From assembly GCA_900318345.1 (NCBI GenBank), contig ONKD01000032.1, positions 1-64,000 of the forward strand: DNA of 64,000 nucleotides, in the 5' to 3' direction. The translations under genes and the position numbers were made by a program. Under the pieces are notes generated by a model that saw only the letters and a program-made list of their open reading frames with translations, did not search any database and was not told the DNA's origin. How positions within the stretch are numbered: position 1 is the stretch's first letter; each line of letters begins with the position of its first letter. This stretch comes from an uncultured Prevotellaceae bacterium. Its GTDB lineage: Bacteria; Bacteroidota; Bacteroidia; Bacteroidales; Muribaculaceae. Below are positions 42,104-52,629 of this stretch, in pieces.

Positions 42104-43618
42104 ATGAAAATGAAAAAATTAGCTTTAATGTTTAGCTTGGCATTGATGACCTGCATGGCCGGCAATGCATCTAGCATCGTTTTTAACGGCACATGGACAG
42201 TTACCATGGATGGTAATACCCAGACGTCCAATGACGGTGAGGTGACCATCGAAACCAACCCCACTGGCGTGGACAATATCAATTTCGTGATTCCTCCTTT
42301 TGGCATCAGCAGTGTATCGCTGTTCTCAGTTCCCGGTGCCACGGTCAATGGCATTACCGTTTATAGCACCGAGCGTGATGTGCAATTCGGTGGCTCAATG
42401 AAGCACGCCATCGTGCTTGCCCGCTACATCGGCGGAATGATGACTGCCGAGATTAACATCCCGGCCGAGGGCATCACCGCGAGGTTTGACAACGTGTATG
42501 ACCACTTCCAGCTGCCCAACAGCGGCTTTGAGGCCTGGACTGCCAGCACTGGCGAGCCCGACCGCTGGCATGGATTCAAGAGCGCAGGCGGCACCTATGC
42601 CACAACTTCGGCAGCTCTTGTCAAGCTTGAGAAAAGCCAGGACGTTCGCACTGGCGCTACCGGCTATAGTGCTGTGATGACCGCTAATTCCATCATTGGC
42701 ATCGTTGCTAACGGCACCATGACCAACGGCCGCCTCATGGCCGGTGCGATGAGCGCCGCCAGCCTTTCTAACCATGCCGAGATGGACAAGACCTCGACCG
42801 AGACCGACGCTAACGGCGACCTGTTCTACATGCCCCTGTATGCCAAGCCCGACGCGTTCAACGTGTGGATGAAGTACACCCAGGGCACCGCCAACGCCAA
42901 CAACAAGGCCAGCGTCAGTGTGAAGACCTTTGATGGTACCTACTATCAGGAGCCCGTGGATATGGAATATACCAACCTGTCGGGCAGCATCGTGGGTGGT
43001 CAGATCCCCGCTGGTGACTGGACCCACTATTCCTTCCCCTTTGACTACGACAGTTATGCTGCCAATGGTGCTGCCACCGAGGCCATTTTCGTCACTTTCT
43101 CGACCAATGGCAATCCCGGCCAGGGCAGCAAGAACGATGCCCTCTACGTCGATGACATGCAGCTGGTTTATCTGGCTCAGATGACCGACCTGCGTTACCA
43201 GGGTGTGACCCTGCAGGGCTGGAACCCCGCGGTTACTGACTACACCCTCGTCATGGACGGTGAGCCCAACCTTGACGACTTCACTGCCGATGTGACTGGC
43301 GCTAGCGCTGTGGTCACCAAGACCATGGAGCAGACCGACAACGGCTACCGCATCGCCATCAGCGCTGTTGCTGGCGACTTGCAGACGGCTACCGCCTATA
43401 TCATCAATGTCACCGTTCCTGCCGCAGGCATGAAAGGTGATGTGGACAACAGTGGCACGATCAACATCTCGGATGTGACCGCCCTCATTGACTACCTGCT
43501 CGCAGGTGGCGACGTCATTGAATATAATGCTGACGTTGACAACAGTGGCACGATCAACATCTCTGATGTGACCGCTCTCATCGACTATCTGTTGACCGGC
43601 AATTATCCCGCTAATTAA
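42104..43618 (+). CDS. Calycin-like/PCMD protein with two dockerin-like repeats
   Basis: The 504-residue secreted protein has a signal peptide (MFSLALMTCMAGNAS), a lipocalin-like N-terminal half (about residues 25-130; ATVNGITVYSTERDVQFGG), a PCMD-type middle domain (about 140-360; LPNSGFEAW...DALYVDDMQLVYL) and an Ig-like segment. The C-terminus carries two near-identical dockerin type I repeats, GDVDNSGTINISDVTALIDY and ADVDNSGTINISDVTALIDY. Each has the Asp/Asn residues of a calcium loop. The two repeats are 60 bp long and about 90% identical in DNA. Dockerins normally dock to cohesins; none is visible in the window. Confidence 0.8.
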   Translation: MKMKKLALMFSLALMTCMAGNASSIVFNGTWTVTMDGNTQTSNDGEVTIETNPTGVDNINFVIPPFGISSVSLFSVPGATVNGITVYSTERDVQFGGSMKHAIVLARYIGGMMTAEINIPAEGITARFDNVYDHFQLPNSGFEAWTASTGEPDRWHGFKSAGGTYATTSAALVKLEKSQDVRTGATGYSAVMTANSIIGIVANGTMTNGRLMAGAMSAASLSNHAEMDKTSTETDANGDLFYMPLYAKPDAFNVWMKYTQGTANANNKASVSVKTFDGTYYQEPVDMEYTNLSGSIVGGQIPAGDWTHYSFPFDYDSYAANGAATEAIFVTFSTNGNPGQGSKNDALYVDDMQLVYLAQMTDLRYQGVTLQGWNPAVTDYTLVMDGEPNLDDFTADVTGASAVVTKTMEQTDNGYRIAISAVAGDLQTATAYIINVTVPAAGMKGDVDNSGTINISDVTALIDYLLAGGDVIEYNADVDNSGTINISDVTALIDYLLTGNYPAN

Positions 43619-43637
43619 TCACTCAAATGTAATAACA

Positions 43638-44186
43638 ATGAAGAAATTATTTTTAATGTTTGCAGCTGTTTGCTGCGCTATGGCTGTCAATGCCACTTCC
43701 TATGGTTGCCACCTCAAGGTGACCATCAATGGCGAGAGCACTGAGCAGGACCAGGTGCCTGTCGAGGTTGTCAAGAACGGTAATACTTACACCTTGACCC
43801 TTAAGAATTTCATCCTCATGGCCGATGGCGTTTCTTTGCCAGTAGGTAATATTGAAGTCACTGGTGTCGAGGGTGTTGACGAGTATGGTTACACGGTAAT
43901 CCATTACAATAACCCGGTTACCATCACTCCTGGTAATGACCCCAATTATGGCGAGAGTGACTGGATTGGTCCCATGTTGGGCGAGGTGCCCATCGATTTG
44001 ACTTCGCGTTTCATCAGCACGGCAATCTCAGCCAATATCGACATCGATTTGTCCGAAATGTTAGGCCAGGTGATTGGCGTGTCGATCTTTGGTGTCGCAC
44101 CCCAGCTCAAGGGCGATGTCAACGAGGACAATGAGGTGAACATCACCGACGTGAACAACGTGATTGACATCATTGTTTCACAGTAA
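43638..44186 (+). CDS. Calycin-like secreted protein with one dockerin-like repeat
   Basis: The 182-residue protein begins MKKLFLMFAAVCCAMAVNA (signal peptide), then a lipocalin-like beta domain (YGCHLKVTINGEST, VEVVKNGNTYTLTLKNF). It ends with a single dockerin-like unit, GDVNEDNEVNITDVNNVIDI, related to the paired repeats of the preceding gene. Probably a smaller paralogue or partner of that protein. Last gene of the operon; a terminator follows. Confidence 0.75.
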   Translation: MKKLFLMFAAVCCAMAVNATSYGCHLKVTINGESTEQDQVPVEVVKNGNTYTLTLKNFILMADGVSLPVGNIEVTGVEGVDEYGYTVIHYNNPVTITPGNDPNYGESDWIGPMLGEVPIDLTSRFISTAISANIDIDLSEMLGQVIGVSIFGVAPQLKGDVNEDNEVNITDVNNVIDIIVSQ

Positions 44187-44308: not shown

Positions 44309-44707
44309 CTAAAATTTCATGTACATGCGGCGGTTGGAGCCCGCGCGGTGGCTCACGTGAATCCATCGGCACCCTTTCTCGTCGATGCACTGGTCCACGG
44401 GCAGGTCCAGGCGCTTGATCAGCGCCAGCAACCGGCGGTTGGCGCTGCGCGAGCCCACGGTGATGTCGGCGGCCTCGCCGCGTTGGTGCTGGCTTGTCGG
44501 TGTCCCGCCCACGGCCTCGTTCAACTCGGGGCAGCGGTAGCCGCTGTTGACCCTGATGGGACCGCCCCAAGCCTCACGCAACGGGTCGAGCACCTCATCC
44601 ACGAGGACGGTCAGGGCTTTGACGGCGCTGGCGGGCGGTGTGTTGTCAATGCCCAACCGTTGTGCGGTAGCCGATCGGCACAACTCAGCGATAGTGAAGT
44701 ACTTCAT
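44309..44707 (-). CDS. M15-family peptidoglycan peptidase (phage endolysin type)
   Basis: The 132-residue protein has a complete zinc site of the M15A family: SQHQRGEAADI with the first His and the Asp, and WIHVS with the second His. IRVNSGYRCPELNEAVGG is the characteristic central motif. It would cut the peptide stems of peptidoglycan. The start is set at MKYFTIAEL, whose ATG overlaps the capsid gene's TGA (ATGA), indicating coupled translation; the longer open frame would read through the capsid 3' end. Last gene of the capsid cassette. No holin is visible. Confidence 0.85.
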   Translation of the reverse strand: MKYFTIAELCRSATAQRLGIDNTPPASAVKALTVLVDEVLDPLREAWGGPIRVNSGYRCPELNEAVGGTPTSQHQRGEAADITVGSRSANRRLLALIKRLDLPVDQCIDEKGCRWIHVSHRAGSNRRMYMKF

Positions 44708-46107
44708 CGGTTCAGGATGCGCATGTGCGCCTTGGGGTAACGCAATACCAGGCACGAGGCCTCGGTCATCACCAGTGCGTCAACGTTGCGCACACCGCTC
44801 TTCTTGAGGTTCAGCTGCTCGGTGCTGAAGGGGATATGGGTGTACTTCTGGATATACTCGGGGTCGATGACCATGCCGCAGTCTTCCAGCCCCACCTCGT
44901 CAAACACCTCGCTCAGCAGCACATACAGGCACCCAAACTTCGATCGCAACTCGGCGAAATCTATGCCCCACTTGCTCACGTGCTGACCGGCGTGGATGAT
45001 GCGGGTGTAATCGAGCTTGCTGATCCTGCTGATCAGGCCGCTGCCGCCAATCAGGATCTTGCGCTTGCTACCCGTGTTGCCGGTGAACGCTTGGCGCATC
45101 AGCTCCACCAGCTCATCCTCGTTCAGCTCGGTTGACGACTCCAGATAGTAGTTCTTGCCCGCCTGGTTCCAGATGCCGCCCGTGAAATAGACGTGTTCCT
45201 TCTTGTTGGGGTCCCAAATCTGGCGGGCAACGCCAAACAGGTAGGACTTCTCGATGCCCATGCGCATGTCATAGACGGCTGCCTCTTCCTGGTCGCTCAT
45301 CGTCCAGCCCACCTCCTTGTTGGACAGGCGCTGCAGGGTTGACTGCTCGACCTGCATCTTGAAGATCTGGCACAGGTTGCGGCTCTTCTTGGGCAGTGCC
45401 TCAAACTGGGGCGATTGCACGTCAAGCTCGCTGGCGGCGCGGCCCATGCGGATGAGGCTCACCCCATTGGGGATGTTGGGGAAGCAGTTGGGCACACCAG
45501 CAATCGTGGGGCCATTCACGGCCATGACAGTCACGCCCTCGTTGGTGCGGTTGATGACATAGAGCACGAGGTCTTGTCCGCTCTCGCTCACGCCATTACT
45601 GTCATAACCTGACACGTTCTGCACAAGAATCGTGTCGGTGGGGTCAAAGATCTCGTTGTTCTGGGTGCTGATGACAATGATGGGGGTGTCATCGCCCTCG
45701 TGCACGTCCGACTCGGTGACCGCCCCCGTCAGTTTAGTGCTCGTGGGCTTGGTGTCAACGCTGTAATAATCAACGACCATGCTGCCGGCGTGTTTGCTGC
45801 CCGCAAAACGCGAAATCTGGTCGATGGGCGTGGACATCGGGCGGATTTTGACAATCTGCTGGTCAATCTCGTTGAGCAACAGGTCGGGCGAGCCCTCGCG
45901 GGTCAGGTCGGTGGTCAACGGGCCGTCAACGACGTGTTTGCCGTCATCCACGCCGGCGATGATCATGCCCACGGCCAGGGTGGCACTACCGCCTTCAGTT
46001 AGACAAGATGATAAGATGGCGATGAGAATCATCGTGATGACAAAGAGAACGAGTTTCTTGTGGTTGCCCATCCAGCGCAGGGCGGTTTGGATTTTGTTCA
46101 GTTTCAT
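44704..46107 (-). CDS. Phage major-capsid-like protein with N-terminal hydrophobic/lipobox segment
   Basis: The 467-residue protein resembles the SU10/DUF5309 type of HK97-fold capsid proteins: NEIDQQIVKIRPMSTPIDQI, GSMVVDYYSVDTKPT, NEIFDPTDTILVQNVSG and a long C-terminal half with ILIGGSGLISRISK and KWGIDFAELRSKFG. Unusually, residues 1-35 form a basic then hydrophobic segment ending AILSSC, which looks like a lipoprotein signal. A capsid protein would normally stay in the cytoplasm. Two readings are possible: a domesticated, exported version, or an N-terminal arm that happens to be hydrophobic. The gene lies between a small acidic protein and the peptidase. Confidence 0.7.
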   Translation of the reverse strand: MKLNKIQTALRWMGNHKKLVLFVITMILIAILSSCLTEGGSATLAVGMIIAGVDDGKHVVDGPLTTDLTREGSPDLLLNEIDQQIVKIRPMSTPIDQISRFAGSKHAGSMVVDYYSVDTKPTSTKLTGAVTESDVHEGDDTPIIVISTQNNEIFDPTDTILVQNVSGYDSNGVSESGQDLVLYVINRTNEGVTVMAVNGPTIAGVPNCFPNIPNGVSLIRMGRAASELDVQSPQFEALPKKSRNLCQIFKMQVEQSTLQRLSNKEVGWTMSDQEEAAVYDMRMGIEKSYLFGVARQIWDPNKKEHVYFTGGIWNQAGKNYYLESSTELNEDELVELMRQAFTGNTGSKRKILIGGSGLISRISKLDYTRIIHAGQHVSKWGIDFAELRSKFGCLYVLLSEVFDEVGLEDCGMVIDPEYIQKYTHIPFSTEQLNLKKSGVRNVDALVMTEASCLVLRYPKAHMRILNR

Positions 46108-46144
46108 GGTTTTAAATAGTAATTTTGAATTGAGTGTGTTGATG

Positions 46145-46531
46145 TTAATCCCAGATGCTGCGGCGGCAGTAACGGGGAAAGTTGATTGTCAAGCCCGGGT
46201 CGTTGTTTTCCTCCTCCTCGGGCTGGGGATGCAGGACTGCCTCGATTTTCTCGTTGCGACCACGCAGGTAGCCGGCTGCATCGGCTGTCTGCACGTCATC
46301 GTCGTGAGTGATGCCGTGGGCGAGCATGGTGAGCAGTTCTGGAGTGACCGCCTCGGCGTTGAGCCCTGCGGTGAGTTCGGTGAGCCGTTTGGTCGTGCCC
46401 TCGTCCAGCCCCATTGTGCCTAGTTTGTCGGCAAGGGTAGGGGAGGTGGTCGGCTCTTGTTCATGCGTTTCACTTGAGTGAAAGGGTGGTGGTGCCACCG
46501 GTTCCTGTTCGGGATGATCTTGTGTTTCCAT
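46145..46531 (-). CDS. Small acidic protein between portal and capsid genes (scaffold-like position)
   Basis: The 128-residue protein is rich in Glu, Pro and Thr in its first 35 residues. A helical centre (TTKRLTELTAGLNAEAVTPELL) and an acidic tail (PQPEEEENNDPGL) follow. Its position between portal and capsid genes is that of phage scaffolding or head-maturation proteins. Sequence alone does not identify it. 37 bases separate it from the capsid gene. Confidence 0.5.
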   Translation of the reverse strand: METQDHPEQEPVAPPPFHSSETHEQEPTTSPTLADKLGTMGLDEGTTKRLTELTAGLNAEAVTPELLTMLAHGITHDDDVQTADAAGYLRGRNEKIEAVLHPQPEEEENNDPGLTINFPRYCRRSIWD

Positions 46532-46932
46532 GTGGATAATGAATGATTAAAGTGAATAATAAAGGAATTATATATACTCGGCGCTTTAGCGTGACTTCAA
46601 CCCAAATAGAGCTAATGCCCAAGTCATCTGATGTGAATGCTATGTCATAATTCATCAGCTGGAATATTAACCGCCCTTCGGGCGGGAAAACTTGAGCAAA
46701 TCGAAGGCCATGAAGTTTACTTCAATGGCTGAGATGCCGCCAAGTTTCGGGAAATTAAAACAAATTTGAATTTTTTATAATAATTTTTTATATTTAATTT
46801 GTTTAAATTTTTCGAGCGAAGCTCGATCAATGTTTCAATCGAGTGTTTTGCAACAATCTCTCGTTCTCTGGTTAGTAACTCACTGAAAACAATTGAGCTA
46901 GGGTGTATTGGTGTCGCAGAGCGCTATCGCTA
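46532..46932. repeat. Intergenic hairpin-repeat element inside the capsid cassette, locus D
   Basis: No gene. From about 46641 (TATGTCATAATT) the sequence matches the inverted right half of the 29.8-30.0 kb element: AACCGCCCTTCGGGCGGGAAAACTTG (hairpin 46671-46685), then AAGGCCATGAAGTTTACTTCAATGG and GCCAAGTTTCGGGAAATTAAAACAAATT. A further hairpin TCGAGCGAAGCTCGA (46812-46826) follows. The second inverted end is not evident. It separates the portal gene from the rest of the cassette by 401 bases. Confidence 0.65.
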
Positions 46933-48351
46933 TCAAGAGGCCAATGCCCCCATTTTGCGGTCACGCTGGCGACGGAAGGCCTCAAATGTGTCAAACACGT
47001 CGCTCAAGGCAATGTTGGCGTTCTCGCTCTGCAGTTGATAGGCGCCCGCGCTGTTCACCGTGGGGGCTTTCCCCTGCAAGGCGCCGCTCACGCCGCTGAT
47101 TTCCTCAAACAGCTTCATCTGCAACTCAATCATCTGGTAGGCCCCGATGTTTGTCCCGTTGCTGCTCACCTGCTCGGGCTTGGCCTCGCTGTAGCGCGGG
47201 TTGTAGGGCAGCAGGCCGTTGGCGCTCGACCAGCAGCGGCGCGCGTCTTCCCAGGTCCAGCCGTCGGGCAGGGCGGTCTCGGGGAACAGCAGCACACCCT
47301 TGGCACTGCTGCGCATCACCTGATCCAACAGCGAGATCATGCGATTGACGTGTTTCTGGGTGTCAATCAGGTCCTCGACGACGGCATGCACCTCACCGTC
47401 GGTTAGCGGATAGAGCTTGATGACAAACGGATGGCTGCCGTGTGGCCAGGGCGAGTCATACTCGCACAGCAGGTCGCCCATCGGGCTGTACCACCGGCAG
47501 TGCCACACGGTGGCGATATCCCAGCGCGTGGATACCTCGGGCGTGTTCTTCAGGCGGTGCAGGGCGCTGGCGGGCTCGACGGTGAGGGTGCCCTCGCGGC
47601 GGTTGTGGCACACGACCACCTCGCGGCTCTCGAGTGTCCACACCTCGATGGCGCGGCACTTGCCATCGGGCGCATGCCAGAAGTCGGTCCCCAGTTGCGA
47701 GTCGGCGCCCAGACGGGTAGTGAAGTCGATGAGGCGGCTCTCGGCGTTGTCGGTATACAGCCGCCTCACCCATGCGGCCTTGCGCGGGTTGCCGCCCGCC
47801 ACGCGGCGCAGCAGTTGGGCGATGTTCAGGTCGTGCAGTTGCCCGATGAGTTCGCAGTCCCAGGCGCGGGTGTCGCCCATCGTGTTCACAAACAGGCGGT
47901 TCACGTTCACGTTATCGACCCTCACCTGCTCGTTGCCCACGGGCTCGTTGACGGTCTCCACGCGCTGGATGCAGCATCCCGAAATCAGGAACTCCTCAAG
48001 CGCGCGGCTGTCGAGTTCATCGAGCTCATTATACTGCCCGATTAGGCTCAATGGGGTGGGGGCGCTATCGCTGTCTTTTTTGATGTACTGGGAGCGGAAA
48101 CGGCCCACAATTGTCTTCACCATCTTCCTGATCAGGTTATTGGTGATGCTTTCACAGCCCTGATGGGCGATGTGTTCGCCCTCGGTCATCAGTTTGCCGT
48201 GCGGACCCCTCACCAGGTCGCCCCATTGGTCGCCATAGGTGAACCGCTTGTTCCTGAGCCGGGCCTGCCGCAATCCTGCCGCGTTCATCCACGCCTGGTA
48301 GGCTGCCCTCAGCACCCGTGTGTGCTCTTCATGGTTTGTTGGTGTCTTCAT
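46933..48351 (-). CDS. Phage portal protein (P22-like/Bacteroides phage type)
   Basis: The 472-residue protein matches portal proteins by its ordered motifs: RNKRFTYGDQW, GCESITNNLIRKMVKTIVG, QYIKKDSD, an EFLISGCCIQRVE strand, VNRLFVNTMGDTR, HPFVIKLYPLTDGEVH and VVEDLIDTQKHVNRMISLLDQ. The C-terminal SGVSGALQGKAPTVNSAGAYQ is also typical. Portals form the 12-mer ring through which DNA is packaged. No terminase gene adjoins it. First gene of the minus-strand cassette; the composition and codon use are GC-rich and uniform with the capsid gene. Confidence 0.82.
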   Translation of the reverse strand: MKTPTNHEEHTRVLRAAYQAWMNAAGLRQARLRNKRFTYGDQWGDLVRGPHGKLMTEGEHIAHQGCESITNNLIRKMVKTIVGRFRSQYIKKDSDSAPTPLSLIGQYNELDELDSRALEEFLISGCCIQRVETVNEPVGNEQVRVDNVNVNRLFVNTMGDTRAWDCELIGQLHDLNIAQLLRRVAGGNPRKAAWVRRLYTDNAESRLIDFTTRLGADSQLGTDFWHAPDGKCRAIEVWTLESREVVVCHNRREGTLTVEPASALHRLKNTPEVSTRWDIATVWHCRWYSPMGDLLCEYDSPWPHGSHPFVIKLYPLTDGEVHAVVEDLIDTQKHVNRMISLLDQVMRSSAKGVLLFPETALPDGWTWEDARRCWSSANGLLPYNPRYSEAKPEQVSSNGTNIGAYQMIELQMKLFEEISGVSGALQGKAPTVNSAGAYQLQSENANIALSDVFDTFEAFRRQRDRKMGALAS

Positions 48352-48455
48352 GGTTCTTCTGTTTTTAAAAATTCAAAGTTTTGTCGCTGGTCGCATAAGG
48401 AGTTAGGAGTTAGAAGTTAGGAGTTGGCCTTTCCTAAAACCTAGAGCCTAAACCC

Positions 48456-48524
48456 TTTAACCTGCAAGCCCAGCGAGCATTATTCACGCTGCAAAATTAC
48501 GCGCCCCGATTCGTCCCCCACCAT
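48456..48524. repeat. ~69-bp direct repeat, copy 1 (left of the radical SAM locus)
   Basis: TTTAACCTGC...CAGCGAGCATTATTCACG followed by GCAAAATTACGCGCCCCG is repeated at 52561-52629 with about 85% identity in the same orientation. Both copies follow a TTAACC-type tract. The radical SAM enzyme and its three leader proteins lie between them. Confidence 0.7.
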
Positions 48525-48611: not shown

Positions 48612-49697
48612 ATGAACGAGCGTCAACAGCAACAATTAGAGATGACTCGCGATTACCTCGAGCGCCTCAGGCGAGAGCACCCCTTAAGGGATTTGTTTTG
48701 GGAATGCACCTTGCGCTGTAACATGGCCTGCCGGCATTGCGGCAGTGACTGCCTCAAGGAATCGATGGTGCCCGATATGCCCTTTGCCGATTTCCTGCCC
48801 GTGCTTGACGAGGTAGCGGCCCATTGCGACACCAAGCAAGTGATGGTGCAGACTGTGGGTGGAGAACCGTTGGTCAGGCCCGACCTGTTGGACTGTGGGC
48901 GAGCGATACGTGAACGGGGCTTCATGTGGGGACTTGTCACCAATGGCCTCATTTTGGACCGCTCTTTAGCTCGCGAGATGGCTCAAGCCGGAATCACTTC
49001 GCTATCCATCGACGTGGATGGCATGCGCGAGGAGCACAACTGGCTCCGCAATTCCAAGGTCAGTTTTGATGCCGCCATGCGGGCGATAGAGGCGGTGCAG
49101 ACTATCCCAGGTCTCACTTGGGACGTGATTACCTGTGTCAACGGCCGTAACCTGCCCCGGCTGAATGAGATCAAGAAGCTGCTCATTGAGGCTGGAGTGA
49201 CCCACTGGCGCTGTTTCACAATCGACCCGATGGGACGAGCCGCACAGGACAAGAGCCTGCTGCTCACCGATGAACAATTCCGTGACTTGCTCAACTTCAT
49301 CGTCGCCACCCGCATCGAGGGGAAAATCAACCTGAGCTATGCCTGCGACGGATTCTTGGGCGCCTATGAGGGGCTTGTCCGCGATTTTTTTTTCTACTGC
49401 CAGGCGGGACTCACCGTCGCCAGCGTGCGGGCTAACGGTGACATCTCGGGCTGCTTGAGCATCCGTAGCGATTACAGCCAGGGCAACATCTATCGCGACA
49501 GTTTCTGGGACGTGTGGGATAACCGCTTTGAGCAATACCGCGACCACGAGTGGATGAGGCGCGGCGCGTGCGAGGATTGCGAGGCCTTCCGCTACTGCCA
49601 GGGCGACGGATTTCACCTGCGAGACGGCAATGGCGACTTGATGATGACCTGCCACTACAAGCAACTGAAGAATATTAGGTTAGAGGTTAAAGGTTAG
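48612..49697 (+). CDS. Radical SAM/SPASM enzyme (TIGR04133-like)
   Basis: The 361-residue protein has the radical SAM cluster motif CNMACRHC (CxxxCxxC) in LFWECTLRCNMACRHCGSDC, the GGEPLVRPDL motif and TNGLIL. A C-terminal SPASM-type set of Cys residues follows: FFYCQAGLTV, GDISGCLSI, and CEDCEAFRYC near the end, with a final Cys in MTCHYK. This agrees with the TIGR04133 branch, usually beside a putative lipoprotein substrate in Bacteroidetes. Such enzymes modify peptide side chains using SAM. The last residues (RLEVKG) are encoded by a TTAGAGGTTAAAGG heptamer-like tract (49676-49712), so the C-terminus may be altered by the repeat. Its probable substrates are the three exported proteins downstream. 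Confidence 0.9.
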   Translation: MNERQQQQLEMTRDYLERLRREHPLRDLFWECTLRCNMACRHCGSDCLKESMVPDMPFADFLPVLDEVAAHCDTKQVMVQTVGGEPLVRPDLLDCGRAIRERGFMWGLVTNGLILDRSLAREMAQAGITSLSIDVDGMREEHNWLRNSKVSFDAAMRAIEAVQTIPGLTWDVITCVNGRNLPRLNEIKKLLIEAGVTHWRCFTIDPMGRAAQDKSLLLTDEQFRDLLNFIVATRIEGKINLSYACDGFLGAYEGLVRDFFFYCQAGLTVASVRANGDISGCLSIRSDYSQGNIYRDSFWDVWDNRFEQYRDHEWMRRGACEDCEAFRYCQGDGFHLRDGNGDLMMTCHYKQLKNIRLEVKG

Positions 49698-49734
49698 AGG
49701 TTAAAGAGGTTATTGTGAAACTTAACATTTTAAC

Positions 49735-50007
49735 ATGATGAAAGACAAAAATAAAGGAAAAAAGTCACTCGCCGCGATAGGTGCCGTGGTTGCTGCCGGG
49801 CTCACGCCTGGTATCATAGCCGCCTCGCCCATTCAAGGCTGCAATGCTGCAGTCACTGCAGCCGACGTGGTCGCCATCGACGGCACTACTTACAGTTTTG
49901 ACGAGTTATATTTTCATCCTCTCGTGATGAAGCTATTGGAAATGACGACACTATTTTTCGTAGCGTTGAACAGATGCCTCAATTCCCTGGTGGCGAGGCT
50001 GCACTGA
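49735..50007 (+). CDS. Exported leader protein 1 (leader shared with two paralogues; frame runs off after DELY)
   Basis: The first ~59 residues form a leader: a basic MMKDKNKGKKSL, a hydrophobic AAIGAVVAAGLTPGIIAASP export segment, a Cys in IQGCNAA, then AADVVAIDGTTYSFDELY. The same leader recurs at 50292 and, with changes, at 51311. After DELY this frame encodes unrelated residues and stops at 50007. The TonB domain that should follow lies in another frame (49974-50279). 37 bases after the radical SAM gene. Either a frameshifted gene, a programmed shift, or a real short peptide. Confidence 0.6.
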   Translation: MMKDKNKGKKSLAAIGAVVAAGLTPGIIAASPIQGCNAAVTAADVVAIDGTTYSFDELYFHPLVMKLLEMTTLFFVALNRCLNSLVARLH

Positions 50008-50279
50008 TGAAATACATTGAATCTCATATCAAATATCCTCCCTTGGCTGCCACGAACAAAGTTCAGGGTAGAGTCATTGTACAATTTGTTGTGAATAAGG
50101 ACGGAAGTATAGGTGAAGTGAAGGTTGTCCGCTCGGTGGATAAGGACCTCGACAAGGAGGCCATCCGAGTTATCAAGACGCTGCCCAAGTTCACCCCCGG
50201 CCGTCAGAATGGGCAAGTAGTGAGCGTATGGTACACACTGCCAGTTTCATTCAAGCTGCCAGCAAAGAACGATAATTAA
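49974..50279 (+). CDS. TonB C-terminal domain fragment, downstream of leader 1
   Basis: 101 residues in a frame shifted relative to the leader. MPQFPGGEAALMKYI, QGRVIVQFVVNKDGSIGEVK and LPKFTPGRQNG are the Bacteroidetes TonB C-terminal domain pattern. The same frame stays open upstream (...RDEAIGNDDTIFRSVEQ), so the domain naturally continues from the leader of 49735 if the frame changed by two bases forward or one back near 49912-49935. The ATG at 49974 is therefore probably not a true start. TonB domains contact outer-membrane receptors from the periplasm. Confidence 0.65.
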   Translation: MPQFPGGEAALMKYIESHIKYPPLAATNKVQGRVIVQFVVNKDGSIGEVKVVRSVDKDLDKEAIRVIKTLPKFTPGRQNGQVVSVWYTLPVSFKLPAKNDN

Positions 50280-50291
50280 AAAACAGATAGC

Positions 50292-50474
50292 ATGATGAAA
50301 GACAAAAATAAAGGAAAAAAGACGCTCGCCGCGGTGGGTGCCGTGGTTGCTGCTGGGCTCACGCCAGGCATCATAGCCGCCTCGCCCATTCAAGGCTGCA
50401 ATGCTGCAGTCACTGCAGCCGACGTGGTCGCCATCGACGGCACTACTTACAGTTTTGACGAGTTATATTCGTGA
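50292..50474 (+). CDS. Exported leader protein 2 (second tandem copy)
   Basis: 60 residues, almost identical to leader 1 (two or three substitutions near residues 11-16); the last 100 bases of the leader are identical in DNA (50370-50469 vs 49813-49912). The frame ends one codon after DELY with TGA. The TonB domain that follows is in the +1 frame. A very recent duplication or gene conversion is implied. Confidence 0.6.
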   Translation: MMKDKNKGKKTLAAVGAVVAAGLTPGIIAASPIQGCNAAVTAADVVAIDGTTYSFDELYS

Positions 50475-50823
50475 TGATAAGGTTCAGAGGAAAAAGACTG
50501 ATGCAAATGACGGCATTATATATCGTAGCGTTGAGCAGATGCCCCGATTCCCTGGTGGCGAGGCTGCACTGATGAAATACATCCAAGAAAACCTCAAATA
50601 TCCACAGGGGCAAGAGAATGTTGAAGGCAAAGTCCTCTTGGAGTTTGTTGTGAAAAAGAATGGTAAAGTTGGATCAGTGAAGGTTTTGAGTGTGTTGGGC
50701 AAAGACTTTGATCAAGAGGTCATCCGTGTTGTCAAGTCGCTTCCCAAGTTTAAACCTGGCCGCCAAAATGGCAAAGCGGTCGATGTATGGTACACGCTAC
50801 ATGTGCCTTATAAACAGAAATAG
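50401..50823 (+). CDS. TonB C-terminal domain fragment, downstream of leader 2
   Basis: The TonB-type domain runs from about residue 46 (VEQMPRFPGGEAALMKYI, GKVLLEFVVKKNGKVGSVK, LPKFKPGRQNGKAVDVWYT). Residues 1-21 are a +1 reading of the leader coding sequence and are surely not native. A linker (RDDKVQRKKTDANDG) then joins. Removing one base in TATATTCGTG (50465-50474) would fuse leader and domain in a single 170-residue protein. The frame offset (+1) differs from that of copy 1 (+2/-1), so the two breaks arose independently or serve a shared mechanism. Confidence 0.65.
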   Translation: MLQSLQPTWSPSTALLTVLTSYIRDDKVQRKKTDANDGIIYRSVEQMPRFPGGEAALMKYIQENLKYPQGQENVEGKVLLEFVVKKNGKVGSVKVLSVLGKDFDQEVIRVVKSLPKFKPGRQNGKAVDVWYTLHVPYKQK

Positions 50824-50858
50824 GGAAAGTAATCTATTCAACGAAACACCTGCCGTAA

Positions 50859-50910
50859 GGCCTCACGCTAAGCCGCCAAGGCGCGAAGAGTTTATTGGGG
50901 CATCCGCGCG
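50859..50910. repeat. CACGCTAAG...GCATCCGC repeat copy
   Basis: GGCCTCACGCTAAG...AAGAGT...GGGGCATCCGCGCG closely matches 7269-7311. The rest of 50824-51310 holds no gene that I can support; an inverted GCGCGGATGCC at about 51077 belongs to the same family. Confidence 0.65.
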
Positions 50911-51310
50911 TTGAGGGTTGGAAGACAAGAACGACAAGAATGACAAACTTGTATTATAACAAAACGCAGATTGCGCTGATTATCGAGAATTTAGAAATAT
51001 TATTTAGCGTTAATTCGAGTAATTCTCATTATAATAATCACGTGAAAAGATAAAAGCTTGACGTCTTAGCGGAACATAAAAGTGCGCGGATGCCATCAGA
51101 GGTCTCAGACTATTCAGTTGTTAATTTAAGAACTGGCTAGCATATTTAAAAGTTGTTTTTATTGTTTTTTTAATGTTGTTTTGGTTGTTTGATATAGCGA
51201 CTTTGCATGGGGTCAAACGGCTGAAACGAAATAGGAAACAGGCACGGCTAAAGAGCATTAAACTCTAACGGCGTTTTTTAGTCTAAAAGATATAAAAACG
51301 CTACCTCATC

Positions 51311-51967
51311 ATGAAAAAAGACAAAAATAAAGGGAAAAAGACGATCGCCGCGGTGGGTGCCGTCGTTGTTGCCGGGCTCACGCCAGGCATCATAGCCGCT
51401 AGCGCTGCAGGTACGGCTCTCCAAGCCCCCAATGCCACAGTCACCGCAGCCGAGGTGGTCGCCATCGGCGGCAACACTTATGACTATGACGAATTATATG
51501 ACATGCAGCAGCGTGCCGACGGGCCGAAGCAAGCCAAGAAGAAAGAACAACGTCAACAAGCCACAAGGTATGGTGTGCCACGCCCTCAACACGCAACATA
51601 CTATGGTGTGCCACGCCCTTCAGGAACTTTTCCTTCAAAGCCTAGTCCTCCCCCTAAGCCCGATCCAACAATTGTTGTTGTAACAATGCCGAATTCTGAA
51701 ACGGTTGAAATGACCTGCCTGGAGTACCTCATGGAGTACAGTGCACAACTGATTGCTGCCGATGCCAGAGGTATCATGATTACACCAGACAGTGACCTCT
51801 CTCATGAATTAGGAATGAATGAAGACCAATTGAAGGCGCTCAAGGCTGAAATTGAAGACTGCTTTGGCGTGGAAGTTTCCTACAACCGATTCTTCCTCAA
51901 AGGCCAGCTCAACACCCTCCGTCTCATTTCAGAGTATATCTATAAGCTGAAAACCGTTTGGTATTGA
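51311..51967 (+). CDS. Exported leader protein 3 with YGVPRP motifs and acyl-carrier-like C-terminus
   Basis: The 218-residue protein is intact. Residues 1-62 are the shared leader (MKKDKNKGKKTIAAVGA..., VVAIGGNTYDYDELYD). A charged, Gln-rich linker carries two copies of YGVPRP (in RYGVPRPQHA and YYGVPRPSG), then a proline-rich stretch. The last ~75 residues (DSDLSHELGMNEDQLKALKA, IEDCFGVEVSYNRF, LISEYIYKL) follow the helical pattern of an acyl carrier protein, but at the place of the usual DSL serine there is MNEDQL, so no phosphopantetheine attachment is expected. YG-x-P motifs also occur, as I recall, in lipoproteins linked to TIGR04133 enzymes; they may be the modified sites. Confidence 0.6.
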   Translation: MKKDKNKGKKTIAAVGAVVVAGLTPGIIAASAAGTALQAPNATVTAAEVVAIGGNTYDYDELYDMQQRADGPKQAKKKEQRQQATRYGVPRPQHATYYGVPRPSGTFPSKPSPPPKPDPTIVVVTMPNSETVEMTCLEYLMEYSAQLIAADARGIMITPDSDLSHELGMNEDQLKALKAEIEDCFGVEVSYNRFFLKGQLNTLRLISEYIYKLKTVWY

Positions 51968-52528: not shown

Positions 52529-52560
52529 CTCATGCCCTTTTAACCTTTAACCTCTAACCT

Positions 52561-52629
52561 TTTAACCTGCTCGCGCAGCGAGCATTAATCACGCCGCAGA
52601 ATTACGCGCCCCGCTTCATCCACACCATA
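52561..52629. repeat. ~69-bp direct repeat, copy 2 (right of the radical SAM locus)
   Basis: Same orientation and about 85% identical to 48456-48524. Preceded, like copy 1, by TTAACC-type heptamers. Confidence 0.7.

Follow-up and report, generated by a model that had tools for sequence, protein, structure and literature searches.

A TIGR04133 radical SAM/SPASM enzyme from a Prevotellaceae genome and exported partners that share Xaa-Tyr-Gly: a candidate for splicease-like chemistry

Introduction

Spliceases are among the closest described systems to the one considered here. In these systems PlpX, a SPASM radical S-adenosylmethionine (SAM) enzyme of IPR026482, acts together with PlpY to cut tyramine from Xaa-Tyr-Gly (XYG), the chain being rejoined as an alpha-ketoamide (PMC11002830, PMC10533398, PMC10373908). 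PlpX works without the leader of a ribosomally synthesised and post-translationally modified peptide (RiPP) (PMC11002830, PMC10533398), the sequence IRPLYGLPI is contained in tags used with PlpX (PMC10533398), and splicease systems number 27 characterised and 939 predicted (figures cited in PMC10533398). Our subject is a gene set at positions 48612-51967 of a 64,000-nucleotide stretch of DNA, hereafter the window, from an uncultured Prevotellaceae bacterium (GenBank GCA_900318345.1, contig ONKD01000032.1, positions 1 to 64,000; genome size 3.17 Mb, 82 contigs): a radical SAM/SPASM enzyme of family TIGR04133 followed by three genes, here genes 1, 2 and 3, that start with the same basic/hydrophobic leader and a VVAI-G-TY--DELY block. 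The PlpX family IPR026482 we take to be TIGR04103, the name used below.

A first-pass annotation of this locus, made from the sequence without database searches, had read it as an undescribed modification system in which one TIGR04133-like enzyme recognises several exported proteins through their leader. The enzyme family and the leader and block on all three downstream genes were borne out, and a survey of the genus confirmed that one such enzyme may have several exported proteins; the splicease link and the XYG motif had been overlooked. What, then, do these enzymes recognise, and what do they do? Our analysis suggests that the target of TIGR04133 enzymes is probably XYG in exported proteins and that their chemistry is most likely splicease-like.

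The enzyme and its intact partner

The enzyme gene (48612-49697, plus strand) is intact and encodes a 361-aa protein, identified by profile score, domains, cysteines and predicted fold. It scores 494.2 bits against TIGR04133, above the cut-off of 425, and is thus a member of the family, with both radical SAM and SPASM domains detected. Across 47 aligned enzymes C36, C40, C43, C47, C175, C245, C263, C281, C320, C323, C329 and C347 are invariant; the window enzyme has the radical SAM CxxxCxxC (C36, C40, C43) and the SPASM-region cysteines C245, C263, C281, C320, C323, C329 and C347. Its predicted fold has a predicted local distance difference test score (pLDDT) of 90.9, and searches of solved structures returned generic SPASM or radical SAM neighbours. 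Among the best 80 loci, the closest named relative, at 92% identity, is from uncultured Prevotellaceae bacterium isolate RUG362, and the named relatives are Bacteroidales, chiefly metagenome assemblies from rumen and gut.

Gene 3 (51311-51967, plus strand; 218 aa) is the sole intact partner adjoining the enzyme in the source genome; its frame, alignment and predicted fold give a leader, an XYG linker and an acyl-carrier fold. The leader is predicted to be disordered, and the conserved block that belongs with it (residues 49-67; 51455-51511, plus strand) is predicted to form a beta-hairpin and helix. The linker that follows, at about residues 70-125 and of low confidence, holds both YG sites: RYGVP (Y87; 51566-51580, plus strand), in a column invariant among aligned relatives, and YYGVP (Y98; 51599-51613, plus strand), where Y98 is invariant and G99 nearly so. 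The helical domain at residues 129-217 (51695-51961, plus strand) has a pLDDT of about 90; confidence is low for leader and linker (mean pLDDT 64.0, 13 rows), so that we interpret only the hairpin and the C-terminal domain. The first-pass description of the third protein as acyl-carrier-like stands on the predicted fold, the 50 Foldseek matches listed being, by their titles, carrier proteins or complexes that contain one (best E 3.3e-3), and is weak at the level of sequence, where Pfam PP-binding matches under its cut-off (E 0.019). Residues 1-134 of gene 3 include no Cys, and a lipobox is hence absent. TatC was found in the source genome, so the twin-arginine translocation (Tat) export route may apply to the partners.

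The GxDSL phosphopantetheine serine motif is absent from gene 3 and present in 6 of its 23 relatives. The leader proteins that keep it in the acyl-carrier domain (L013, L016, L012, L009, L026, L034) would be exported carriers with a possible phosphopantetheine arm.

An Xaa-Tyr-Gly motif shared by the partners

The feature that unites the intact partners is Xaa-Tyr-Gly, not the leader. We compiled 41 intact partners from the same genus, comprising 23 proteins with leader and acyl-carrier-like domain, 9 with leader and TonB_C, and 9 lipoproteins; window genes 1 and 2, a TonB fragment (L030), a 344-aa fused gene, a cut gene (L032), a cut second gene (L027) and a leaderless LYGPP protein (L022) were left out. 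No dipeptide other than YG occurs in every one of the 41. It has 88 copies in total, where 1000 composition shuffles gave 16.2 on average and 33 at most. These partners were selected partly by YG or leader. Pro was not a selection criterion, and it stands at +2 of 40 of the 88 copies and at +3 of 45; the residue at +2 is variable (P, V, A, I and others).

A more independent test is provided by a wider set of 80 loci, kept out of at least 584 related stretches confirmed among named genomes. In a scripted search for an export-type protein with YG near Pro, or for a leader protein, on the enzyme's strand and within 1.5 kb, 67 of the 80 had such a partner. On the opposite strand, taken over the full length of the loci, the motif criterion gave 7 of 80, and around NirJ2-like enzymes it gave 1 of 11. 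Residue X in the wider loci is most commonly V, M, E, L or R, and Pro occupies +3 at 139 of 205 sites, a preference partly built in by the filter; only 13 of 95 partner proteins carry the leader. Plasmid loci reached by the enzyme search only have lipoproteins adjoining the enzyme that read CYGMP (Treponema saccharophilum), EYGSP (Parabacteroides distasonis) and EYGTP (Phocaeicola massiliensis). XYG is thus common to unrelated partner architectures, namely the acyl-carrier fold, TonB_C, carboxypeptidase-regulatory-like domains and short lipoproteins. A flexible XYG linker between anchor and domain is, we infer, where a modifying enzyme would naturally act, and XYG is very probably the modified site.

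The Treponema saccharophilum locus is of interest in its own right. On plasmid pTS1 of this spirochaete (L246:1776-4068), a TIGR04133 enzyme and an annotated lipoprotein, in which YG directly follows a Cys (SCYGMP), adjoin a serine recombinase gene.

Kinship with spliceases and proposed chemistry

Splicing is favoured as the reaction because of the XYG motif and the relatives of the enzyme. In a search of 395 phylum genomes with the TIGR04133 profile, 3 members (494-603 bits) were followed by 12 places of TIGR04103/TIGR03913 type (151-181 bits), the same 12 that the TIGR04103 profile found; below these came 11 places scoring 112 bits or less, and all 8 of them that were scanned proved NirJ2-like. 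By BLAST among 23 proteins, a set without other families, the best TIGR04103-type score exceeded the best NirJ2-like score for all six TIGR04133 enzymes. Additionally, among the best 40 of 64 records from a plasmid search, a Nostoc TIGR04103 enzyme (136 bits) tops the named matches outside TIGR04133, next to an Agathobacter enzyme without a name (135) and ahead of TIGR04053 (107) and mycofactocin maturases (85-89 bits). On a Nostoc plasmid, the Nif11-type precursor that adjoins an annotated TIGR04103 enzyme ends ALYGLPPELF, close to the RYGVPRP and VYGPPP of the partners here.

We envisage that the enzyme would modify Xaa-Tyr-Gly in the flexible linker of its partner in the cytoplasm, before export. 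A radical generated at the SAM cluster would cause Xaa-Tyr-Gly to lose a tyramine equivalent, after which the chain would close again with an alpha-keto-beta-amino acid at X; we regard tyramine excision as the probable reaction, with less assurance than we give to the site. In the branch represented by this genus the leader may serve as an extra docking piece, and the C-terminal domain would set the destination of the linker. Once exported, the ketoamide would present a reactive group, held in the periplasm or at the membrane, and might plausibly act as a covalent protease inhibitor, a guess made because potent protease inhibition by alpha-keto-beta-amino residues is stated in PMC10373908; we consider inhibition by the product rather doubtful. 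In the source genome, gene 3, with RYGVP and YYGVP, is the sole intact partner left next to the enzyme, the TonB-type partners having lost both sites and frames.

Several observations weigh against a splicease-like reaction. At 13 of the 80 wider loci the scripted search found no partner (in two of them, L214 and L239, a MYG lipoprotein is nonetheless visible), and an evident YG protein or peptide was seen by eye within 1.5 kb at only 4 of the 12 TIGR04103-type loci of the phylum (L044, L045, L047, L049). The window enzyme scores 137.6 bits against TIGR04103, far under the cut-off of 725, and in a tree of 14 TIGR04133, 12 TIGR04103-type, 8 NirJ2-like and 1 outgroup row, TIGR04133 is a separate long-branched clade that is not nested among the TIGR04103-type enzymes, their relation being left unresolved. 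No gene was seen in a PlpY position between the window genes, and a PqqD profile run over the source genome gave at best 13.8 bits (cut-off 23.4), in a search without a PlpY model that a divergent PlpY could escape. In forward NCBIfam scans TIGR04103 heads the outside families when the window enzyme is the query, but with four other TIGR04133 enzymes it drops to third (L009, L018) or fourth place (L042, L043), behind TIGR04053, TIGR04545 or TIGR04055; for this reason, and because L049, a TIGR04103-type enzyme, scores higher with the heme b synthase profile than with TIGR04133, we dropped forward rank as a proof of kinship. Since the TIGR04103 cut-off was tested and the score lies below it, the enzyme is not filed in the PlpX family, yet it probably works like PlpX.

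The main rival to splicing is a different radical reaction at the same Tyr-Gly, one that keeps the backbone: a Tyr cross-link (e.g. a cyclophane of three residues that starts with Tyr), a mycofactocin-like decarboxylation or an epimerisation. Cross-linking, Tyr decarboxylation and epimerisation all lie within the repertoire of SPASM radical SAM enzymes. Tyr decarboxylation, for example, belongs to mycofactocin maturation (PMC8326336), and the mycofactocin maturase profile also matches the window enzyme, at 108 bits; the long separate branch of TIGR04133 fits another reaction as well. Set against this, the Gly directly after Tyr is invariant, the motif with its Pro resembles both IRPLYGLPI of the PlpX tags (PMC10533398) and the Nostoc ALYGLPP, and the variable residue at +2 argues against a fixed Tyr-X3 link. 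None of the cyclophane families XncB, OscB and MscB was recognised among the best 25 of 69 NCBIfam matches, a result obtained without comparing a member of those families. We regard another reaction at this site as a serious but rather unlikely alternative, and splicing by tyramine excision as the reading to prefer.

One TIGR04103/TIGR03913-type locus from a genome of the same order deserves separate mention. At L049:2955-3596 a protein with six KYGYP repeats adjoins the enzyme, and the two are likely to form another XYG system.

The leader and what it marks

How far does the leader account for the partners? In a sample of 61 same-genus genomes, 37 carry 45 TIGR04133 enzymes over the cut-off. 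A profile built from 29 leaders gave 47 matches, spread over 26 genomes and none of them farther than 2971 bp from a TIGR04133 enzyme (two, in G018, belong to a single fused gene); the 24 genomes without an over-cut-off enzyme had no match. Within this sample the leader is tied to the TIGR04133 enzyme, as the first-pass annotation had expected, rather than widespread without it. Leader genes adjoin only 26 of the 45 enzymes, however, and leaderless short lipoproteins with YGPP motifs adjoin 18 (one of these has both types). Of the two enzymes that remain, G017:C12 has a neighbour carrying LCLYGPPYP, and G010:C2 has no such partner within the 7 kb examined; G010 has six lipoprotein-type YGP proteins on contigs other than that of the enzyme. 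With the leader at 26 of 45 enzymes and Xaa-Tyr-Gly in all 41 intact partners aligned, the idea of the leader as the unifying feature falls, and so, across the family, does that of conservation confined to it: YG and, in the TonB group, TonB_C are also conserved in intact relatives.

On the view taken in the first-pass annotation, the enzyme would recognise the leader and modify a site within or beside it, YG being incidental; this view draws on the 47 of 47 matches near an enzyme and on the predicted hairpin and helix of the conserved block, a plausible docking piece. It sits poorly with the 19 of 45 genus enzymes that have no adjoining leader gene and with the wider partners, which mostly have other N-termini (leader in 13 of 95), and we judge it improbable. 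More improbable still is that YG..P has a structural or sorting role in exported proteins while the enzyme targets another protein or a small molecule: no modified protein of the family was found in the literature searched and 12 of 57 lipoprotein-profile matches lie away from an enzyme or enzyme fragment, but the motif spans partners of differing architecture and is rare in the controls.

Two frame-broken partner genes

The two TonB-type genes, which the first-pass annotation had counted as substrates, are not intact, their frames being broken just past the leader. In gene 1 the leader frame, a leader-profile match, runs from 49735 to 50007 (plus strand), with leader to DELY at 49735-49911 and the sequence thereafter out of frame, and the TonB_C part lies in a different frame at 49974-50279 (plus strand; E 2.1e-23). 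In gene 2 the leader frame (50292-50474, plus strand; also a leader-profile match) ends with a stop codon at 50472-50474, directly after DELYS, and the TonB_C frame occupies 50401-50823 (plus strand; domain at residues 65-138, E 2.9e-15). Leader and TonB_C are thus in separate frames in each gene, with no single open frame. The DELY codon TAT is separated from the shared CGTGATGA by 11 nt in gene 1 and by 1 nt in gene 2, and the breaks are therefore opposite in sense.

Another same-genus genome, G019, has two intact TonB-type genes at the equivalent position, and in comparison with these copies gene 2 is 83 nt short in the linker region, where gene 1 shows two gaps, of 35 nt and 77 nt. The linker that carries YG in relatives is lost from both genes, and YG is absent from all four of their open-frame pieces. 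Genes 1 and 2 are probably decayed partners of the enzyme. Error in the assembly is a possible source of the breaks, which in this 82-contig genome are described rather than proved; no second assembly of the source species was found for comparison. Programmed frameshifting was considered and rejected because opposite shifts would be required (11 versus 1 nt between the same flanks) and because both genes are without the linker of their relatives. Genes 1 and 2 are identical at 170 of their first 177 nt, and exchange between the copies is therefore likely, as judged from the two sequences.

In genome G018 (L149:3852-4883) the 344-aa fused gene encodes a leader and TonB_C, then the end of a second leader, YG and TonB_C, which is a sign of recombination among tandem partner genes.

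Surroundings of the gene set

The enzyme and its three partner genes are bracketed by direct repeats of about 73 bp, with a left copy at 48451-48524 and a right copy, 85% identical, at 52556-52628 (both plus strand); elsewhere in the genome there are two short partial matches only, and the repeats may be cassette boundaries. To the left of the enzyme, phage-type genes recognised with PHROGs span 44312-48351 on the minus strand and include genes for an endolysin-like protein (44312-44707), a major-head-like protein (44707-46107) and a portal (46936-48351), probably a prophage remnant. Further left, at 42104-44186, are two secreted-type genes, the second with a calycin-like domain and a dockerin-like end.

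Implications

TIGR04133 and TIGR04134 are named nowhere in the literature searched, which also yielded no paper combining 'splicease' with 'lipoprotein', and the available part of a study of RiPP mining in Bacteroidales (PMC10352776) makes no mention of splicing, YGP, lipoprotein or TonB. The 939 predicted splicease systems (a figure cited in PMC10533398) may already include the TIGR04133 family. If the proposal is true, the placeholder-named TIGR04133/TIGR04134 pairing, long an orphan, gains a predicted reaction and an exact site, and backbone splicing is no longer confined to small peptides but takes in exported and lipid-anchored proteins, both in Bacteroidales of gut and rumen and in one Treponema. 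Protease-reactive chemistry on common gut bacteria would then be indicated, and new splicease tags would be on offer.

We also put forward, as a tentative extension that we would not yet call likely, that TIGR04133 might be a widespread splicease lineage for exported and lipid-anchored proteins rather than RiPP peptides, with ketoamides in the linkers of anchored Bacteroidales proteins serving as covalent protease inhibitors or cross-linkers. Under such a scheme, swappable domains (acyl-carrier fold, TonB_C, carboxypeptidase-regulatory-like) would deliver linker ketoamides to different places.

Comparison with known systems

The nearest named system is the TIGR04133/TIGR04134 pair (NCBIfam rSAM_w_lipo and lipo_with_rSAM). 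The window enzyme is likewise a TIGR04133 member, and its partners are filed outside TIGR04134: none of the window proteins reaches the TIGR04134 cut-off of 39.8 bits, and nothing in the source genome exceeds it, in agreement with the first-pass view that these partners fall outside the known radical SAM/lipoprotein pairing. The window partners differ from TIGR04134 lipoproteins in their leader and in their acyl-carrier or TonB_C domains, and gene 3 is unlike them in having no lipobox Cys. Elsewhere, TIGR04134 membership was found for 6 of 10 wider-locus partners scanned and for the L042 neighbour, with sites that read MYG, EYG or LYG. XYG is present in all seven of these profile-found lipoproteins (the L042 neighbour, L184, L191, L210, L222, L224 and L230), the last six of which came from a YG-selected list, and in both of the annotated TIGR04134 lipoproteins reached without YG selection.

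The C-terminal domain of gene 3 has the same fold as acyl carrier protein, from which gene 3 differs in lacking the GxDSL serine; all 23 relatives, moreover, have an export-type leader first. The TIGR03913 'GDL motif' maturases with their DUF1843 peptides lie in the same neighbourhood of radical SAM families as TIGR04133. For example, two of three Azospirillum oryzae peptides beside TIGR03913 enzymes contain YG (LYGG, PYGV), the third having MYM. Unlike the window system, TIGR03913 systems have short peptides without an export leader and a longer enzyme, of about 475-516 aa.

With respect to PlpXY, the differences are that the window enzyme lies under the TIGR04103 cut-off and in a clade of its own, that no PlpY-type gene was seen, and that PlpXY substrates are Nif11/NHLP-leader peptides, whereas the partners of TIGR04133 enzymes are exported proteins. 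The likeness lies in a SPASM radical SAM enzyme and an XYG with Pro soon after, and by reverse profile and BLAST PlpX-type enzymes are the nearest outside families to TIGR04133.

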